Origin: Chloroflexota bacterium
GTDB lineage: Bacteria; Chloroflexota; Anaerolineae; JAAYEA01
Direction: 5' to 3'
NCBI GenBank assembly: GCA_019873665.1
Contig: JAIOAV010000023.1
Coordinates: 1 to 51,369 of the forward strand
Length of the DNA stretch: 51,369 nt
Part shown: piece after piece, positions 12,425 to 41,994 of the stretch
How positions within the stretch are numbered: position 1 is the stretch's first letter
Layout of the letters: each line of letters starts with the position of its first letter
Made by a program: the position numbers and the translations under genes
The notes under the pieces: model-generated
Databases searched by the model: none
Told to the model about the DNA's origin: nothing
What the model saw: only the letters and a program-made list of their open reading frames with translations

Positions 12425-14221
12425 TCATCCTTCGATGGCGTTCTGTAGACGGGTTGCCTCTTGCTTCACTTCGTTCAACTGGTCTTGCACGCTCTGCAGC
12501 TCATCGCGCAGCCGTGTGAGATAGCTCTCTACCGGCGTCAGAGCCTGGTGAATCTGGCTGCGAAACGCCGTGAACTCCTGGCTGGTGGAGGCCGATAGCG
12601 CCTCTTCGAAAGTCCGGCGCAGTTGGCCGATCTGTTCCTGCAGCGCCTGCTTGGCCTGCTGCCGGGCGCGCGGCAAGCGCCGCGAGATGAGCCAGGCAGA
12701 GCCACCCAGCGTGGCTGCTCCGCCTACCGCCCACCCCAGGGGACCCACCAGGGCAGAGATAGTCGCCCCGGCCTGTATGGCGATCAGCGCGCGGATGATG
12801 TCGTCTATCACCGCCATCATAATGATGCCGCCGACCAGCCCCGAGACACCGGTGATGATGGTCTCGCCGATCGCGCCGAGCTGGATATCGCGCACGGAGC
12901 TGGCGGCATCCTGCCGGCTATAGCGCATCAGCGCTCTCTCCGCCTGCCGCACATTGTCCTCGAATGCCTCTAGGCTCACCTGGAAGTCGTCGTCCACCGC
13001 GCCGATGATCTCGTCCTGGTGGCGCATGAGCATCTGACGCATCGCGGCAAAAGTGGCTTGCCACTGTCTGCGGTCTTCGGTGATGAGCTCGTCTACTATC
13101 TGGTTCACCTGCGAGGTGATCGCCGCGGGAGCATCGGCGATGACCGCCTCCTGGAAGCGGTTCTGGAACTCCTGTCGGTTCAGGAGGTGTGCCAGCGCGC
13201 GGAATTGCAGGTTCTCGTCAATGAAACGGTTCCCCCGCTGCAGCATCCCGTCAAAGGTCGGCTCTAGGCGATCCAGCTTGCGATCCAGCCGCGAGGTAAT
13301 CGTCTGCTGATAGGCGTGCTCCTGCGCCTCGATCTCGTTGATGGCGGCGAAATCGCGCGCCAGCAGTGCCAACTGCTCGGCGAGCGCGCCCTGGTACCGC
13401 GTGGCGACCGTTTGCACCACCCGCAGCGGCGTGGATAGCTTCTCGCGCAGACGCACCTCTTCATTGAGGCGGTTGTTGACCAAGTCCACCACCTGCTGCA
13501 TGTTGCTGTCTTCCCACAGCTTGCGACGGTGTGGCAGATTGTGCAGGCGGAACGATTCGGTGGCCCACTTGGCGGAGACCGGGATGATCTCCGGCCGGAA
13601 GCCGAGGAGCGAGGCGCACTGCTCGCCGATGAAGCGTTCCACTTCGTGCACCTCCCTCTGATCGGCAAGGAGATCAATCTGGTTGAGAATGATGACGACC
13701 TTGGGGCCGTACTGCCGCACCAGCTCCAGATAGACGCGATCCGTCTCGGCAAAGGCGTGCGTCGCCGCCATCACAAAGAAGACGAAATCGCTGCGGTGCA
13801 CAAACTCGTGGGCGAGCTTCTCGTGTTGGCGAAAGACCGCATTCGTGCCCGGCGTATCCACAATGCTCATCTTTTCCAACACCGGCGCAGGGTGCGTTAG
13901 CACGATCATCGAATCCTCGTTGCGGCTCCCCTTGAGCACCCCATGACGGACGATGGTGATCCTGGCGGTCGTGGGAAGGATGCCCACTGGCAGATAATCG
14001 TCCTGTAACAACGCATTGATGAAGGTGGACTTGCCCGAGTTGAACTCCCCAACCACCACCAGCAAGAAGAGCTGGTTCAGGTGTTCCAGCATATCCTCGA
14101 CGCGCTTCAGGTCCTCCGCCGACACGATGTCGAGCCGCGCCAGCGCCGCACGCGCGGCAGTCAGCAGGGCGATCTCTTCTTGATAGATGCGGTCGTATGG
14201 CGGGGGGAATTGACGTTCCAT
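12425..14221 (-). CDS. Dynamin-like GTPase (second of tandem pair)
   Basis: A 598-residue bacterial dynamin-family protein. G1 is GEFNSGKST (residues 58-66), G2 the TT pair at 84-85, G3 DTPG (122-125) and G4 NQID (180-183). Coiled-coil helices follow, and a hydrophobic stretch at roughly 440-520 (GVSGLVGGIIMMAVIDDII, then SALVGPLGWAVGGAATLGG) should act as the membrane paddle or anchor. The C-terminus is again coiled coil (RDELQSVQDQLNEVKQEA). Such proteins hydrolyse GTP to remodel or stabilise membranes, often as hetero-pairs. It starts 6 bases after the stop of the first dynamin-like gene, at ATG 14221, and is last in the chlD operon. Confidence 0.9.
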   Translation of the reverse strand: MERQFPPPYDRIYQEEIALLTAARAALARLDIVSAEDLKRVEDMLEHLNQLFLLVVVGEFNSGKSTFINALLQDDYLPVGILPTTARITIVRHGVLKGSRNEDSMIVLTHPAPVLEKMSIVDTPGTNAVFRQHEKLAHEFVHRSDFVFFVMAATHAFAETDRVYLELVRQYGPKVVIILNQIDLLADQREVHEVERFIGEQCASLLGFRPEIIPVSAKWATESFRLHNLPHRRKLWEDSNMQQVVDLVNNRLNEEVRLREKLSTPLRVVQTVATRYQGALAEQLALLARDFAAINEIEAQEHAYQQTITSRLDRKLDRLEPTFDGMLQRGNRFIDENLQFRALAHLLNRQEFQNRFQEAVIADAPAAITSQVNQIVDELITEDRRQWQATFAAMRQMLMRHQDEIIGAVDDDFQVSLEAFEDNVRQAERALMRYSRQDAASSVRDIQLGAIGETIITGVSGLVGGIIMMAVIDDIIRALIAIQAGATISALVGPLGWAVGGAATLGGSAWLISRRLPRARQQAKQALQEQIGQLRRTFEEALSASTSQEFTAFRSQIHQALTPVESYLTRLRDELQSVQDQLNEVKQEATRLQNAIEG

Positions 14222-14227
14222 TCCGGC

Positions 14228-16075
14228 TTATCCCTCTTGTTCTGAGCTGAGCATAATCTCCAGGGAGAGCATGGACGCCTCAACCTCATTGATACGTGCT
14301 ACGTTCTGATGAAGCCTTGCCTCCTCCGTGCGCACTAGGCGGCCGAACGGCGCGATCGCTGTCTCGGCTGTATCGCGGTAGCGCTGCACCTGTCGCTGGA
14401 CCCGCTGTGTGATGCGCGTTTGCAGCGCCTTTTGCAGGCGTGCGATGGCCCGATGCAGTATGCGACGCGCCCAGGCGCGGCGCAACGGCAAGAGTGCAAG
14501 CGCCAGACTGCCCAGCACGAGGGCTCCGGCCACGATCCAAATATAGAGTTGCGTGCGCTCCTCAGCCGGTACAAAGGTGCGCACATAGTAGCTGAGCGCC
14601 AGCGCGGCGACGAGCACGACGACCTCCCATGCGATGGTGCGCCACCATGCGCCTCGCGCCAGCGCCGTCCAACGCTGCACGAAAGGGACAAGCTCGCTTT
14701 CACGTAAGGCCTGCTCCAGCCCCTTGGTTGCCTCCTCTAGCTCGGCGGAGGGCGACGTCTCTGAGGCTGGCACGCGAATCTCGCCAATCATGCGCGAGGT
14801 GAGCGCTGGCCGTGCGGGCGAGAGGTAGCGATTGACGTGTTGCACGGTATCCCGCACCATCGCCTCCCCCTCGCGTCGCACCGATGCGTCCACATCGTGG
14901 AGCAGACAGCCCAGTTGCTCCGGCACGTCCACTTGCAGAAACCGAGTGAGTGCTCCTTCCTTTTCCTCGCGCGGTGGGCCAGACAAGAAAGGAATACGCA
15001 AGAGGTGGCGTGCGATCTCGCGCCCGACATTGCCCAGCGAATAGTCCTCCTGCAGGCTCTGCTGTGCGCGCTCACCGATCTGCGCGATGGTGGCATCCAG
15101 TCGCGCTGTCAGCAGTGGCAAGCGCCCGATTGCCTCGCTCTGATAGGTCGCCAATTGCGCCTCGATATTCCCAACGAACTCGATATCCTCCTGCCATTGA
15201 GCTAGTTGCGCCTCCACCAGCGGCCGGTAGCGGTTGAGCAGCCATTGCCCTACGCGCAGCGAGGTCAGCAGGCTCTGGCGTGCCCGGCTCTCGGCCGACG
15301 TCTCGCGCCGGATGATCTCCCAGATGCGGTCCATGCCACTCTCTGCCTGCAAGGCCCTCCGCTCGCCTGGATCGGTGGCCTCTGCCGCCTGGAAGGCCAG
15401 CCGTGCCGATACAGGCACGACCGGCAGGTCAACGCCGAAAAGTCGACGCGCTGTGTCGCGCACGTATGCCAGCACCTGGGCTAGCTCATCCGTGCCTCCC
15501 AGCCGATCGGTTTGCGAGACGACCAACACCGTCTTGGCGCCAAACTCGCGTAGCAGGTCCATATAGAGCCGATCCGTCTCGGCGAAGGGGTGGTTGGCGG
15601 CGATGAGGAAAAAGAGGATATCGCCGCGGTGAATGAACCGGCGTGCACGCTCCTCGTGCTGGCGAAAGATGGTGTTCGTGCCGGGAGTATCTACGAGGTA
15701 AAGGGCGCGCAGCCATTCGGCGGGATAGGTCCACTCAACGATATCGTCGCCACGTCGCACGATGGCGGCCACGGGCCCATGTGTGATCATATGGATGCGG
15801 TCGGTTGTCGGAGTCGCGCCCTCTGGCAGCAGGTGTGTGCCCAGCAGCGCGTTGATCAGGGTGGACTTGCCCGAGTTGAACTCGCCGAGCACAACCAGCG
15901 AAAAGAGTCCGCTCACATGCTGGATGGCATCCTGGAGCTTTTGCAGATCGTCTGGAGAGACACCGGAAAGAGGCGAAAGCACATCCACCAGTGCCAGAAG
16001 ATGCTGGCGGAGCTGTTGGCGAAAAGCCTCGTACCGCTCGTGCCACCCTTCCTCTGTGTGAACGTTCACATCCAC
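14228..16075 (-). CDS. Dynamin-like GTPase (first of tandem pair)
   Basis: A 615-residue dynamin-family GTPase, paralogous to the next gene. G1 is GEFNSGKST (64-72), G2 is in GATPTT (86-91), G3 DTPG (129-132). G4 is SQTD (187-190) rather than N-K-x-D, so guanine specificity may be relaxed. Two hydrophobic helices near residues 455-520 (VVVLVAALALSYYV and IWIVAGALVLGSLALALLP) predict membrane insertion, with a basic coiled-coil tail behind. It begins 13 bases after the VWA end of the chelatase gene; GAGGTGG lies directly before ATG 16075, and a GTG at 16069 is an equal candidate. Tandem arrangement matches known two-component bacterial dynamins. Confidence 0.9.
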   Translation of the reverse strand: MDVNVHTEEGWHERYEAFRQQLRQHLLALVDVLSPLSGVSPDDLQKLQDAIQHVSGLFSLVVLGEFNSGKSTLINALLGTHLLPEGATPTTDRIHMITHGPVAAIVRRGDDIVEWTYPAEWLRALYLVDTPGTNTIFRQHEERARRFIHRGDILFFLIAANHPFAETDRLYMDLLREFGAKTVLVVSQTDRLGGTDELAQVLAYVRDTARRLFGVDLPVVPVSARLAFQAAEATDPGERRALQAESGMDRIWEIIRRETSAESRARQSLLTSLRVGQWLLNRYRPLVEAQLAQWQEDIEFVGNIEAQLATYQSEAIGRLPLLTARLDATIAQIGERAQQSLQEDYSLGNVGREIARHLLRIPFLSGPPREEKEGALTRFLQVDVPEQLGCLLHDVDASVRREGEAMVRDTVQHVNRYLSPARPALTSRMIGEIRVPASETSPSAELEEATKGLEQALRESELVPFVQRWTALARGAWWRTIAWEVVVLVAALALSYYVRTFVPAEERTQLYIWIVAGALVLGSLALALLPLRRAWARRILHRAIARLQKALQTRITQRVQRQVQRYRDTAETAIAPFGRLVRTEEARLHQNVARINEVEASMLSLEIMLSSEQEG

Positions 16076-31198: not shown

Positions 31199-31231
31199 GA
31201 CGAGGCCCCATGGCAAACATGGGGCCTCGTC
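31199..31231. terminator. Bidirectional hairpin between convergent genes
   Basis: A perfect 14-bp stem (31199-31212 with 31218-31231) with loop GCAAA separates the toroid-fold gene from msrA. Its outer arm (ACGAGGCCC) is shared with the hairpin on the other side of msrA. No long T tract follows on either side. Confidence 0.7.
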
Positions 31232-31237
31232 TGGTGT

Positions 31238-32071
31238 CTACTCGGTGGTCGGTGACGGCACGGGGCAAGCAGGTGCGATCGCGTTCGAGCCAACCATCCG
31301 CAGCAGCATCTGCGTCGCCGCCTGCGACAGGCCAAGCTGTAGGATCGTGTCGGCATCTTGCGGCGTGCCATAACCACCCACATACCCGTTGGCGCGTGCT
31401 ACCGCCGTCGAGTGGATCAGGCTGGCTGTGTCGGCATAGATGGCCTCGAACTCGCGGAAGAGATTGCGCTGGCTCCGCAGGTAGTACTTCTGGTGATAGT
31501 CCTCCGCCAGATAGAAGCGGCCGGCAAGCTCGATGTCAGTATAGAGCCTGACGCCCAGCGCCTCCTCACGCTGCTGCTTGCTCTCCCGCGCGATCCGCTC
31601 CTGCTCTTCGTTATGATAAAAGATGGCCGAACGGTATTGCCGAGACCACGCCGGGGAGGTCGGATCGTGGCTCTGCCAGAAGACGGCCAACAGCTCCGCG
31701 TACGTTATCTGCGTCGGGTCATAGTCGATCTGCACCGTCTCGGTGTGATCGCCCAGTTTGTAATACGTCGGATTGACGGTCGCGCCGCCGGTATAGCCGA
31801 CGCGGGTGCGCACAACTCCGGGGATGCTCCCGAACCGGGAGTCAGGTCCCCAGAATCAGCCCAGCGCCAAAGTGGCGGTCTCGACAACAGCGGGCGCTGC
31901 GGCGTCAATGGCCGGTATCGTGGATCTCGCCTGCTTGATCATCGCAGTCTCGTTACTCTCCTTCGCTGCACTGTTCGTCGGCTTCTGCCCTGCCCAGGTA
32001 ATGGCCAGAAGGCCAGCAAATAGGATCATCCCGGCCAGGGCCAAGCTGATGTACTTGATATATGGTGTCAT
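31238..32071 (-). CDS. msrA: Membrane-anchored MsrA, probable selenoprotein (TGA at the catalytic site)
   Basis: Peptide methionine-S-sulfoxide reductase repairs oxidised Met. The frame from ATG 32071 to 31238 is interrupted only by one TGA at 31858-31856, exactly where the family has Cys in G-C-F-W-G: here LALG-TGA-FWGPDSRFG. Downstream are GYTGG, YDPTQITYAELLAVFW, HDPTSP, RQYRSAIFY and AEDYHQKYY, all intact, so the domain is complete. Residues 5-27 form an N-terminal membrane helix, putting the enzyme outside the cell. I read TGA as selenocysteine (U72; total 277 residues), as known for MsrA in some algae and bacteria. A hairpin right after TGA supports this. A nonsense mutation is the alternative. 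One Cys near the C-terminus (APAC) may resolve the selenenyl intermediate. Confidence 0.82.
31820..31858 (-). promoter_or_regulatory. Sec codon and candidate bacterial SECIS hairpin
   Basis: TGA is at 31858-31856. Four bases on, GGGGA (31851-31847) pairs with TCCCC (31824-31820). Inside it CTCCCG (31841-31836) pairs with CGGGAG (31832-31827), leaving a GTT apical loop, with a 5/2-nt internal loop between the stems. The apical G lies 20 nt beyond TGA, in the distance range reported for bacterial SECIS elements (about 16-37), and G and U in the loop fit SelB contacts. Pairing was done by eye. Confidence 0.7.
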
Positions 32072-32169
32072 GGGTTGCCCCTCTGTAAATATTGTCCCCA
32101 TAGCAGTATAGCACATGACGTGGCACGCGGATATGAGCGGGATCATGGCTGCTCTGAGCGGAAAAACAC

Positions 32170-32201
32170 ACGAGGCCCTGCAGTCTCCTGCAGGGCCTCG
32201 T
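32170..32201 (-). terminator. Intrinsic terminator upstream of msrA
   Basis: A 14-bp perfect stem (32170-32183 with 32188-32201, arms ACGAGGCCCTGCAG and complement) has a TCTC loop and on the minus strand is followed by GTGTTTTTC. This is a good intrinsic terminator for the minus-strand genes ending before it, and it isolates msrA from them. Confidence 0.8.
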
Positions 32202-38887: not shown

Positions 38888-38970
38888 AGCTTGATGATTC
38901 GCAGCGATCGCTCATGCGTTCCGAGGGTAGGTTGCCGCGCGGTGTCCGAAAAGACGAGGAGGGACGTGGT

Positions 38971-39843
38971 TTGAGACGCCGCGATAGGTGGGCCAATCTG
39001 TTGATTCTATTGGGCATTATCATGCTTTGTGTCGCGGTTCTCGGCGTAATCTATCAGACGCGGAGCAATGGTGCTCGCGCCGGCTCCTCGGCGGCGACTC
39101 GCCCCATCGTTGTGCTCTCGTCTCCCACAGCCGTCGTGATAGGGGATCAATCTCCGGTCGCCTCTCTCGCACCGACAGGGATATCTACCGCCATGAGCTC
39201 CCTGTCGCGGCCGACGGATACTCCGACGGAGCGGCCAACCCATCTGCCGACCGCATTGGTGACGGCGGGAACGCCATTGACGCCCACGGCGCTTTCCCAG
39301 CCGCTGACGCCACTTTCCCCGATGCCGGCGTCGCCGACGTCAGTATTGCCTACGGTGGCCTTGCCGACGCCGGCGTCGCGCACGTCGGGCGTGGTGGCAT
39401 GGCCCCGCGTGGTCATCCCCAAGATCGAACTGAGTGCCAGCTGGGAGCCGGTGCACTGGCGCGCAGTGGCGACGAATGACGGCATCATCGGGGAGTGGGA
39501 GACACTTGATGAGGGAGTCGGCTATCATGTCGGCAGTGCGGCGCCGGGAGAGCGTGGCAATGTCGTGATGTCTGCCCACGGCCGCCCCGGGGGTCCGTTC
39601 GCTCGCTTGGCAGAACTCAAGGCGGGTGACGAGATCTGGCTTGAGACTAGCGAGACGAATCGCCACCGCTATGTCGTCGTGGAAATGGCAACGGTTCAGG
39701 AGGTTGGGGCGTCGCTAGCGCAACAGCAAGAGCATGCGCGATATCTCGCACCCACCCAGGACGCGCGTCTCACGCTGATCACCTGCTGGCCGCCATGGGC
39801 CTATACACACCGGCTTATCATTGTTGCCAGGTTGCAGGGCTGA
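38971..39843 (+). CDS. Sortase
   Basis: A 290-residue membrane-anchored sortase, the transpeptidase that links surface proteins to the cell wall or to each other. It has an N-terminal helix (WANLLILLGIIMLCVAVLGVIYQ), a Thr/Pro/Ser-rich linker of about 100 residues and a C-terminal sortase barrel. The triad is present: His203 in VVMSAHGRP, Cys272 in LTLITCWPPW and Arg281 in THRLIIVARL. AGGAGGG (38957-38963) lies 7 bases before TTG 38971, which is the better start than ATG 38914. The stop overlaps the next start by one base (TGATG). A likely partner is the LPATGG-ending protein at 45593-46279. Confidence 0.9.
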   Translation: MRRRDRWANLLILLGIIMLCVAVLGVIYQTRSNGARAGSSAATRPIVVLSSPTAVVIGDQSPVASLAPTGISTAMSSLSRPTDTPTERPTHLPTALVTAGTPLTPTALSQPLTPLSPMPASPTSVLPTVALPTPASRTSGVVAWPRVVIPKIELSASWEPVHWRAVATNDGIIGEWETLDEGVGYHVGSAAPGERGNVVMSAHGRPGGPFARLAELKAGDEIWLETSETNRHRYVVVEMATVQEVGASLAQQQEHARYLAPTQDARLTLITCWPPWAYTHRLIIVARLQG

Positions 39844-40742
39844 TGATCACATGGCGCGGGTATAAAGGCAGTCGCCGGCTGGAGCGGTTGGCCTTGGGGC
39901 TTGGTGTGGTCGCGATGGCGCTCTGCGTTCTGGTCGCCTGCGGCAGCGAGTCGCCGCCGTCTCCTGGGCGTTTTGGCGTATGCGCTGAGCCGGCGCCGAA
40001 ATTGCAGGCACAGCTTGATGCGGTTGGCGATATCTGGTATTATGATTACCATTTTGCCACCGCGAGTGTGACAGGACATCAGCGCCTGTTTATGATCCGG
40101 TTTCAGCCGCTGGACGAGACGCTGGAGTCGGTGGTGCGGGCCAATCCGGGTGCATGGTGGGTGGTGGGAAACGAGCCGAACGATCCGCACCAGGATAACT
40201 TGTCGCCAGAGGCATATGCGGCACGTTTTCACGAGGTCGCCGAGTTCATCAGACGGGTTGATCCAAGCTGCCAGATCTTGCCGGCGGGTCTGGCGGATGC
40301 AGACTGGCGGTGGGCACGGGAGTTTCGGGAGGCATACCGCCGGCGCTACGGGCGGTACCCGGTCATGGCCGGTTGGAACATTCACAACTATTTGCTAGAG
40401 CCGGGCGTTGATCCATACGATGTGGCAGAGTTCAAACGCCGGATCGTGGCCTTTCGTCATTGGATGCTGGAGATCGGCGAGGAGGAGAAACCTCTCTTCT
40501 TGACCGAGTTCGGCGTTCTGTATGGCGCAGGGTGTTGCGATCGGCCGGTGGACCCGCCGGAGAGGACTGTTGCGTTCATGCGTGAGACGGTTCAATGGCT
40601 CGCGACAACGGGTTACGTCCAACATTGGGCTTGGTTCATACTCAACAATGCGGGCGAGTTCAACGGCGGCTTGTACGAGGAGGGGCTCACTTTGTATGGG
40701 CAAGCATACCGGGATCTGGTGCAGCAGTATGCAGCCCCTTAG
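39843..40742 (+). CDS. Lipoprotein glycoside hydrolase-like protein (clan GH-A, Asl1/GH128-like)
   Basis: A 299-residue exported protein. The signal peptide ends in the lipobox LVAC (Cys33). The TIM-barrel body has acid/base Glu111 in WWVVGNEPNDP and a nucleophile-like Glu222 in LFLTEFGVLYG, spaced as in clan GH-A enzymes. It is most like the Asl1-type (GH128-like) beta-glucanase group; GH39 is the alternative. The ATG overlaps the sortase stop by one base, so the two proteins are made together. It is paralogous to the catalytic half of the protein at 43798-45462. A role in trimming surface or wall glycan is likely but unproved. Confidence 0.78.
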   Translation: MITWRGYKGSRRLERLALGLGVVAMALCVLVACGSESPPSPGRFGVCAEPAPKLQAQLDAVGDIWYYDYHFATASVTGHQRLFMIRFQPLDETLESVVRANPGAWWVVGNEPNDPHQDNLSPEAYAARFHEVAEFIRRVDPSCQILPAGLADADWRWAREFREAYRRRYGRYPVMAGWNIHNYLLEPGVDPYDVAEFKRRIVAFRHWMLEIGEEEKPLFLTEFGVLYGAGCCDRPVDPPERTVAFMRETVQWLATTGYVQHWAWFILNNAGEFNGGLYEEGLTLYGQAYRDLVQQYAAP

Positions 40743-40830
40743 AGCAATGACCGGAAGGGCATCGTCCCCCATTTGCCCCAAGTAGCGTGCGTAAGCAGAT
40801 CGTGCCGGCGCACGCTGGGGAGTTGTTAAC

Positions 40831-41994
40831 ATGAGATCTATCAAGGTTTCCTGGCGGCAAAACGATTGGGTCGCGGCGCGACGGCGATTGGTGGCTCTGT
40901 GTATCGCCGCCCTGGTGATCTTGGTGCTCTTGGCGACGCCCACGACGGGCGCGCCCGTGGGCCTTGATGCGACACCGGTGCCTCCGCCGCGCGTGCGGGT
41001 CTGGATGATTGCCGTGGATCCGCCCGATGCGCGGGTGGCAATCGGCGGCGAGATCACCTTTTCGATCACAGTGCGCAATGTTGGTGTCATCCCGATCACT
41101 TTTCTCTGGGTCATGGATCAGTACCCACCCGATTGTCTGGCTTACGCCTCGGCAGTACCATTTGGCCTGGATGATCAGCGCGGGCGGGTTATCTGGTCAC
41201 ATCTGACGCTTCCCACAGGCGGGCTGCAGCCGGGCGCGTCGATCTCGTTGATGATCACGTTGCGGGCGTTGGCCGAGTGCACCAATGTAGTGAACGAGGT
41301 TTTCGTCAGCGGTGTCAGCGCGCTGGATCAATCCATCCCGCCTTCGTATGACTCCGTGGCGATCACGGTGTTACCGCGAATTACACCGACGCCAGTGCCG
41401 ACGCCGACAGCGACGCCGCTGGCGCAGACCCGAGTATTTCAGCAGGGTCATGAGGACTATGATGGGACGCGTGATACCTACTTGAGCGCATGGTATACCA
41501 CGAAGAACTATGATCGTGCCAGTTCGCTGGCACTACGCGCCGGTGGGCTCATGGTCCCGCTCATCCGCTTCGATTTGGGCGCGTTGCCGCGGGATACCGA
41601 GATCGCCGAAGCCACATTGATCCTTACGGTGGTATCCGGTGGATTCTATGAGCAAGAGGTCAGCGTCTATGAGGTGTTAATGCCATGGGTGGCGAGCGAG
41701 GCTACTTGGCAGCAGGCGGCGACAGGCGTGCCATGGCGCACGGCGGGGGCAAATGGCATCGGGGAGGATCGCTCTGGCGTGGCTGTGGACACGGAGCTGG
41801 CGATCGCGTTCACGGTCATCGAATTCGACATTACGGAACTCGTCGCCAAATGGGTGGCCGACCCAGCCACCAACTACGGCATGCTCTTGCGAGGTACATC
41901 CGGGATTGCAGTGCAGCATAACTTGGCCTCTGCAGAGCACTGGAACAGAGCCGTGCGCCCGCAGTTGGTGGTTCGCTATCGTGTTGGTTCGTAG
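40831..41994 (+). CDS. Secreted DUF11 plus DNRLRE-type domain protein
   Basis: A 387-residue surface protein. It has a signal peptide (RLVALCIAALVILVLLATPTTGA). The first domain (about residues 55-180) is an immunoglobulin-like DUF11 fold (ITFSITVRNVGVIPITFLW). A Thr/Pro linker (PTPVPTPTATP) follows. The second domain (about 200-387) starts with DYDGTRDTYLSAWYTTKNYD and LIRFDLGALPRDTEI, typical of DNRLRE repeats in adhesion or wall-associated proteins. No catalytic residues are seen. It probably binds or bridges surface structures. The start has no close ribosome binding site but matches the signal peptide. It lies in the sortase module on the same strand. Confidence 0.75.
   Translation: MRSIKVSWRQNDWVAARRRLVALCIAALVILVLLATPTTGAPVGLDATPVPPPRVRVWMIAVDPPDARVAIGGEITFSITVRNVGVIPITFLWVMDQYPPDCLAYASAVPFGLDDQRGRVIWSHLTLPTGGLQPGASISLMITLRALAECTNVVNEVFVSGVSALDQSIPPSYDSVAITVLPRITPTPVPTPTATPLAQTRVFQQGHEDYDGTRDTYLSAWYTTKNYDRASSLALRAGGLMVPLIRFDLGALPRDTEIAEATLILTVVSGGFYEQEVSVYEVLMPWVASEATWQQAATGVPWRTAGANGIGEDRSGVAVDTELAIAFTVIEFDITELVAKWVADPATNYGMLLRGTSGIAVQHNLASAEHWNRAVRPQLVVRYRVGS

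Follow-up and report, generated by a model that had tools for sequence, protein, structure and literature searches.

Evidence for a selenoprotein MsrA, probably exported, encoded across an in-frame TGA codon in a Chloroflexota genome

The window analysed here (the whole stretch of 51,369 nucleotides from a Chloroflexota bacterium) carries on its minus strand an msrA gene whose catalytic codon is TGA, and we consider it very probable that this UGA is read as selenocysteine (Sec), giving a probably exported, Sec-dependent MsrA (methionine sulfoxide reductase) of the CoMsrA type that acts by the mechanism proposed below. CoMsrA is the selenoprotein MsrA of Clostridium (Alkaliphilus) oremlandii OhILAs (PDB 4LWJ, 4LWK, 4LWL, 4LWM and 4U66). 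Sec insertion at the UGA is something we infer, from comparative evidence that supports it strongly. Bacterial Sec-MsrA have been known since 2006-2009 and are structurally characterised, and the window gene is a solid new example of them; its interest lies in the export leader found in most copies, which raises the matter of how a selenol enzyme stays reduced outside the cytoplasm of anaerobes. Standard annotation would lose this MsrA, as it would most selenoproteins. The features of the locus are collected in Table 1.

Table 1. Features of the msrA locus, with positions numbered along the window
Feature	Position	Strand	Basis
Selenoprotein MsrA gene (predicted)	31238..32071	-	277 residues with Sec72; one internal TGA; PMSR and TIGR00401 matches
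UGA codon 72, catalytic position of G-U-F-W-G, predicted to be read as Sec	31856..31858	-	TGA in 70/80 relatives, TGC/TGT in 10
Hydrophobic N-terminal leader, signal anchor or signal peptide	31990..32071	-	Hydropathy 2.61 over LALAGMILFAGLLAI; predicted helix 5-27
MsrA catalytic domain, about residues 64-203	31463..31882	-	Pfam 65-202; E111 and Y103/Y104 correspondences
C-terminal helical domain, CoMsrA type, about residues 204-262	31286..31462	-	CoMsrA alignment; model helices 202-261
Cys269 in C-terminal Cys-Pro tail, possible resolving residue	31265..31267	-	Cys-Pro tail in 9/81 sequences; same-family genome G001
Predicted SECIS core hairpin, CUCCCG-GUU-CGGGAG	31827..31841	-	Fold, consensus, compensatory pairs, synonymous null, slid-pair and permutation controls
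GUU apical loop of the SECIS hairpin	31833..31835	-	GUU in 69/71 TGA and 4/10 Cys sequences
Intrinsic terminator of the upstream gene	32170..32201	-	Strong
Long GC-rich hairpin right behind the msrA stop	31200..31233	-	Terminator-like, no T run; -30.1 kcal/mol, z -6.4

The msrA frame and its relatives

The frame runs for 278 codons from the ATG at 32071 to a TAG at 31240-31238, and its sole internal stop is the TGA of codon 72, which sits at the catalytic Cys codon of MsrA, so that the motif G-x-F-W-G reads G-TGA-F-W-G. The read-through product matches Pfam PMSR (PF01625) over residues 65-202 with 153.7 bits (cut-off 23.7), and the NCBIfam msrA model TIGR00401 with 136.6 bits, also over its cut-off. 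This upholds the sequence-only reading of the locus, which had described this motif in an otherwise unbroken MsrA frame. The start that it proposed also stands: GAGGGG lies about 8 nt upstream of the ATG and, in the alignment of relatives, residues N-terminal to the TGA are conserved in one frame across it, which implies that msrA translation begins upstream of the TGA. The GC3 content is alike on either side of the TGA (0.72 and 0.79), and the frame behind it is open to its end and retains the residues of the catalytic and helical domains.

Relatives came from a scan of a species-level genome collection, which yielded 400 encoded relatives, the best 80 of which were kept. At the catalytic codon, 70 of these 80 have TGA, five TGC and five TGT; one search pattern had a Cys codon at this position, so any search bias would have acted against TGA. 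With TGA or Cys at the catalytic codon and no general decay of the frame among these best 80 of 400, the homologues agree with the Sec codon proposed earlier. The TGA copies within the same 80 come from Chloroflexota, Thermodesulfobacteriota, Myxococcota, Bacillota, Planctomycetota, Synergistota, Spirochaetota, Acidobacteriota, Nitrospirota and other phyla. Judged by this set of relatives, the usual form of this MsrA branch in anaerobes is the one with Sec. A quick tree was weakly resolved, and its use is limited to the spread of Cys and TGA. Thermoplasmatota archaea are the source of three of the ten Cys copies; in these three loci (L043, L063 and L076) an MsrB-like gene lies directly downstream of the Cys MsrA of this branch, and the archaeal genes were likely acquired from bacteria by horizontal transfer. 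One further locus, L122 (G022:C365:5000-7000), from a relative of the same class that has tRNA-Sec, keeps both the msrA TGA and a lipobox and shifts frame a few codons past the TGA; this points to an error of assembly or to a broken msrA copy.

The window gene is the sole MsrA in the assembly of the source genome, in which no MsrB was found. The terminator of the upstream gene (32201-32170), together with the hairpin behind the msrA stop, indicates that msrA is probably transcribed as a single gene. In several Chloroflexota loci (L023, L025, L030, L040, L070 and L094), a Sec or Cys msrA closely follows the end of an MsrB-like frame; this suggests an msrB-msrA operon that is absent from the source genome.

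The hairpin behind the UGA

The predicted SECIS hairpin has a core stem of 6 bp, which occupies positions 18-32 counted from the U of the UGA and starts 14 nt past the UGA; its GUU loop lies 21-23 nt after the A of the TGA, close to the distance of about 20 nt first given for it. A loop-G criterion has been described for the apical loop of bacterial SECIS elements (PMC1088965), and the window hairpin has a small apical loop with a G, immediately 3′ of the UGA. Rfam, at its gathering thresholds, returned only tRNA from the window and no match to a SECIS family.

When RNAalifold was run on 71 TGA sequences (the window and the 70 relatives from the best 80 of 400), the consensus was the core hairpin alone. 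The two-part hairpin described from the sequence is thus retained for its core, whereas the outer stem forms on folding the window sequence and is absent from the consensus. Across these 71 sequences the inner C-G pairs 20-30, 21-29 and 22-28 are invariant. At pair 19-31 there is U-A in 32 sequences and G-C in 29, and at pair 23-27 there is G-C in 52 and A-U in 11. The pair cells are formed in 93% of cases with their real partners, against 21-61% when the partners are slid, and for pair 19-31 there are 66 paired cells against a permutation maximum of 48. The mean hairpin energy of the TGA set is -9.64 kcal/mol, compared with -2.61 kcal/mol on synonymous recoding, and was reached by none of 200 nulls. 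Pair 19-31 also couples residues of the protein: where residue 78 is Ser, residue 82 is mostly Ser too, and where it is Ala, residue 82 is mostly Gln or Leu, so that the constraint on the RNA is visible in the protein. We conclude from these comparisons of sequences that selection acts on the hairpin at synonymous sites, with covariation; its conservation, its compensatory changes and the synonymous nulls bear out the SECIS nature that had been proposed for it. Together with the TGA or Cys codon found in all of the best 80 of 400 relatives, the nulls rule out that the arrangement arose by chance.

In eight of the ten Cys copies the hairpin is weaker or missing. A strong SECIS-like hairpin is kept in the other two, L038:421-1290 (-10.7 kcal/mol), which belongs to a Syntrophobacterales relative, and L040:5001-5792 (-11.4 kcal/mol). 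SECIS remnants in Cys copies are described in PMC1794560, and L038 and L040 are probably recent Sec-to-Cys conversions, of which a Cys copy with a kept hairpin would be the mark.

Decoding machinery and other readings of the TGA

The source genome (G000; 4.16 Mb in 185 contigs, 91.5% complete, 6.15% contamination) contains tRNA-Sec (70.4 bits, cut-off 47; anticodon TCA by ARAGORN), selA (582.7 bits) and selB (355.5 bits), and in these three genes it has the Sec-decoding apparatus that the sequence-only reading called for. The fourth gene that it named, selD, did not turn up: none was over the cut-off in the 91.5% complete assembly, and the two best matches below it look like other proteins of the AIR-synthase family, one of them being HypE beside HypD. 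Formate dehydrogenase likewise gave only matches below the cut-off in the source genome, and these lack a TGA.

The missing selD lends itself to a reading in which the Sec apparatus does decode the UGA and, for want of SelD, mostly delivers Cys or Ser there. We think this very unlikely, since the assembly is incomplete, and 34 of 41 searched genomes of the class (the source genome being one of the 41) have selD over the cut-off, among them G001, of the same family. The level of completeness and the presence of selD in a same-family genome make an assembly gap the likely cause. G001 also has tRNA-Sec, and one of its contigs ends in the last 52 residues of an msrA that is 77% identical to the window copy and has the same APACPVP tail. 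The selD genes of the class (G001-G040) nearly always carry an in-frame TGA of their own, that of G001 too, which makes their products selenoproteins as well; annotation pipelines would be prone to cut such genes short.

Could the TGA instead stem from an error in sequencing, or from a nonsense mutation in an msrA of the Cys type that is decaying? The source is a draft assembly, and the copy of the class relative G022, in which the frame shifts close behind the TGA, may be taken as a sign that broken copies exist. Against this, the same TGA is present in 70 of the best 80 of 400 relatives, the hairpin covaries and is selected at synonymous sites, and behind the TGA the frame is open, with the even GC3 and intact residues noted above. 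The shared TGA and the covarying hairpin refute error or decay for the family, and for the window copy itself we regard it as extremely unlikely.

A mechanical gene call does split the locus, as had been foreseen for ordinary annotation, into ORFs at 31856-32146 and 31238-31813, which would suit a short membrane peptide ending at the TGA followed by a separate MsrA fragment that starts at GTG 31813 and lacks the catalytic residue. That there are two genes here is, however, hardly credible: the residues before and after the TGA show the conservation of a single protein, and a product from 31813 would be without the catalytic residue and the first strand, so we reject this reading on the conservation of one frame across the TGA codon. 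Some bacterial lineages read TGA as Trp, an ordinary sense codon, and the likelihood of such a code here is practically nil, because TGA serves as the ordinary stop of 10 of the 22 large frames in the window, selA, selB and tRNA-Sec are present, and a Trp where relatives have Cys would leave the enzyme inactive.

Architecture, export and comparison with known MsrA enzymes

By sequence, the best solved relative of the window protein is CoMsrA, which scores 198 bits where the next MsrA scores 113, in an alignment that extends to residue 234. CoMsrA is also the top fold match of the AlphaFold2 model (TM-score 0.89 of the target, about 200 residues), in which mean pLDDT is 89.4 and the C-terminal tail is of low confidence. 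The two proteins share Sec at the catalytic position of GUFWG in the same catalytic domain, where CoMsrA Glu55 corresponds to E111 of the window protein, invariant in the alignment of relatives, and Tyr47/48 to Y103/Y104; both also have an extra C-terminal helical domain, which is absent from other MsrA structures. CoMsrA depends on that domain for its activity, loses 20-fold in activity when its Sec form is compared with the Cys form, and is reduced by glutaredoxin and not thioredoxin (PMC4333827, PMC4479559). They differ at the two ends: Sec is residue 16 of CoMsrA, which has no leader, whereas in the window protein a leader and a linker to the catalytic domain place 71 residues before Sec72; and CoMsrA is without any Cys, whereas the window protein has Cys269 in its flexible Cys-Pro tail.

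The standard Cys MsrA enzymes (E. coli, Mycobacterium, the MsrA domain of PilB) have the same catalytic fold over about 150 aligned columns, but they use Cys in place of Sec, lack the helical domain and are recycled through a resolving Cys and thioredoxin. Nearer to the window gene are the Sec-MsrA of Syntrophobacter fumaroxidans and other anaerobes, which are also bacterial with GUFWG; that of Syntrophobacter was listed in 2006 (PMC1794560) and the family has a row in PMC13188914. No leader or export is described for them in the accessible parts of these two papers, the comparison being one of descriptions. With the Syntrophobacter listing in PMC1794560 and the crystal structures of CoMsrA, the novelty first claimed for the window gene was overstated.

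The N-terminal leader suggests that the window MsrA is probably exported or membrane-anchored and works outside the cytoplasm. An anchored form had been called less familiar for this lineage; the leader is no peculiarity of the lineage, since many relatives share it. A simple rule based on hydropathy assigns one to 57 of the 71 TGA sequences (56 of the 70 relatives when the window is set aside). A lipobox-like motif occurs in about 30 of the TGA sequences and a twin-arginine motif in three; all these counts are approximate, as starts were taken from the longest frame. The window copy has no lipobox after its leader. Among known exported enzymes, SpMsrAB2 of S. pneumoniae with its Etrx lipoproteins (PMC3914529) and the MsrAB of H. 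influenzae (PMC9404787) resemble it in their presumed repair of methionine outside the cytoplasm; SpMsrAB2 and H. influenzae MsrAB are, however, Cys enzymes with redox partners that are known or studied, while the window enzyme would use Sec. We found no description of an exported Sec-MsrA in the open-access literature searched, an absence that is not proof.

We propose that the hairpin recruits SelB with Sec-tRNA(Sec), whereupon the ribosome would read the UGA of codon 72 as Sec. By analogy with CoMsrA, the selenol of Sec72, helped by Glu111, would attack methionine-S-sulfoxide and release methionine, and the C-terminal helical domain would maintain the geometry of the active site. Most likely the enzyme is exported by means of its hydrophobic N-terminus and stays anchored by it on the outside of the membrane, in a place where it would repair proteins of the envelope. 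Regeneration would probably draw on an extracytoplasmic thiol donor, possibly with the participation of Cys269: glutaredoxin, the reductant of CoMsrA, is an improbable partner outside the cytoplasm, which is why we propose a thioredoxin-like protein of the envelope or the Cys269 tail. No thioredoxin-like partner stood out adjoining msrA within the window. The Cys-Pro tail is found in nine of 81 sequences (the window and the best 80 of 400 relatives), and that Cys269 acts as a resolving residue is no more than a proposal. Extended to the clade, the idea would be that most of its Sec-MsrA, across many anaerobic phyla, are extracytoplasmic, as lipoproteins or membrane-anchored proteins, and that a subset has a Cys-Pro resolving tail, giving a Sec/Cys pair absent from CoMsrA; we hold the chances of this to be evenly poised. 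If it is true, the bacterial Sec-MsrA described so far would represent a cytoplasmic branch that is out of the ordinary, and there would be an extracytoplasmic reductant, dedicated to a selenoenzyme, to be found.

Elsewhere in the window, two adjacent genes on the minus strand (12425-14221 and 14228-16075) encode dynamin-family GTPases and are probably a bacterial dynamin-like pair. On the plus strand, the region 38914-41994 has a sortase gene a short way past tRNA-Ser (GGA), and after it a gene for a DUF11/CBM96 protein of the surface type.
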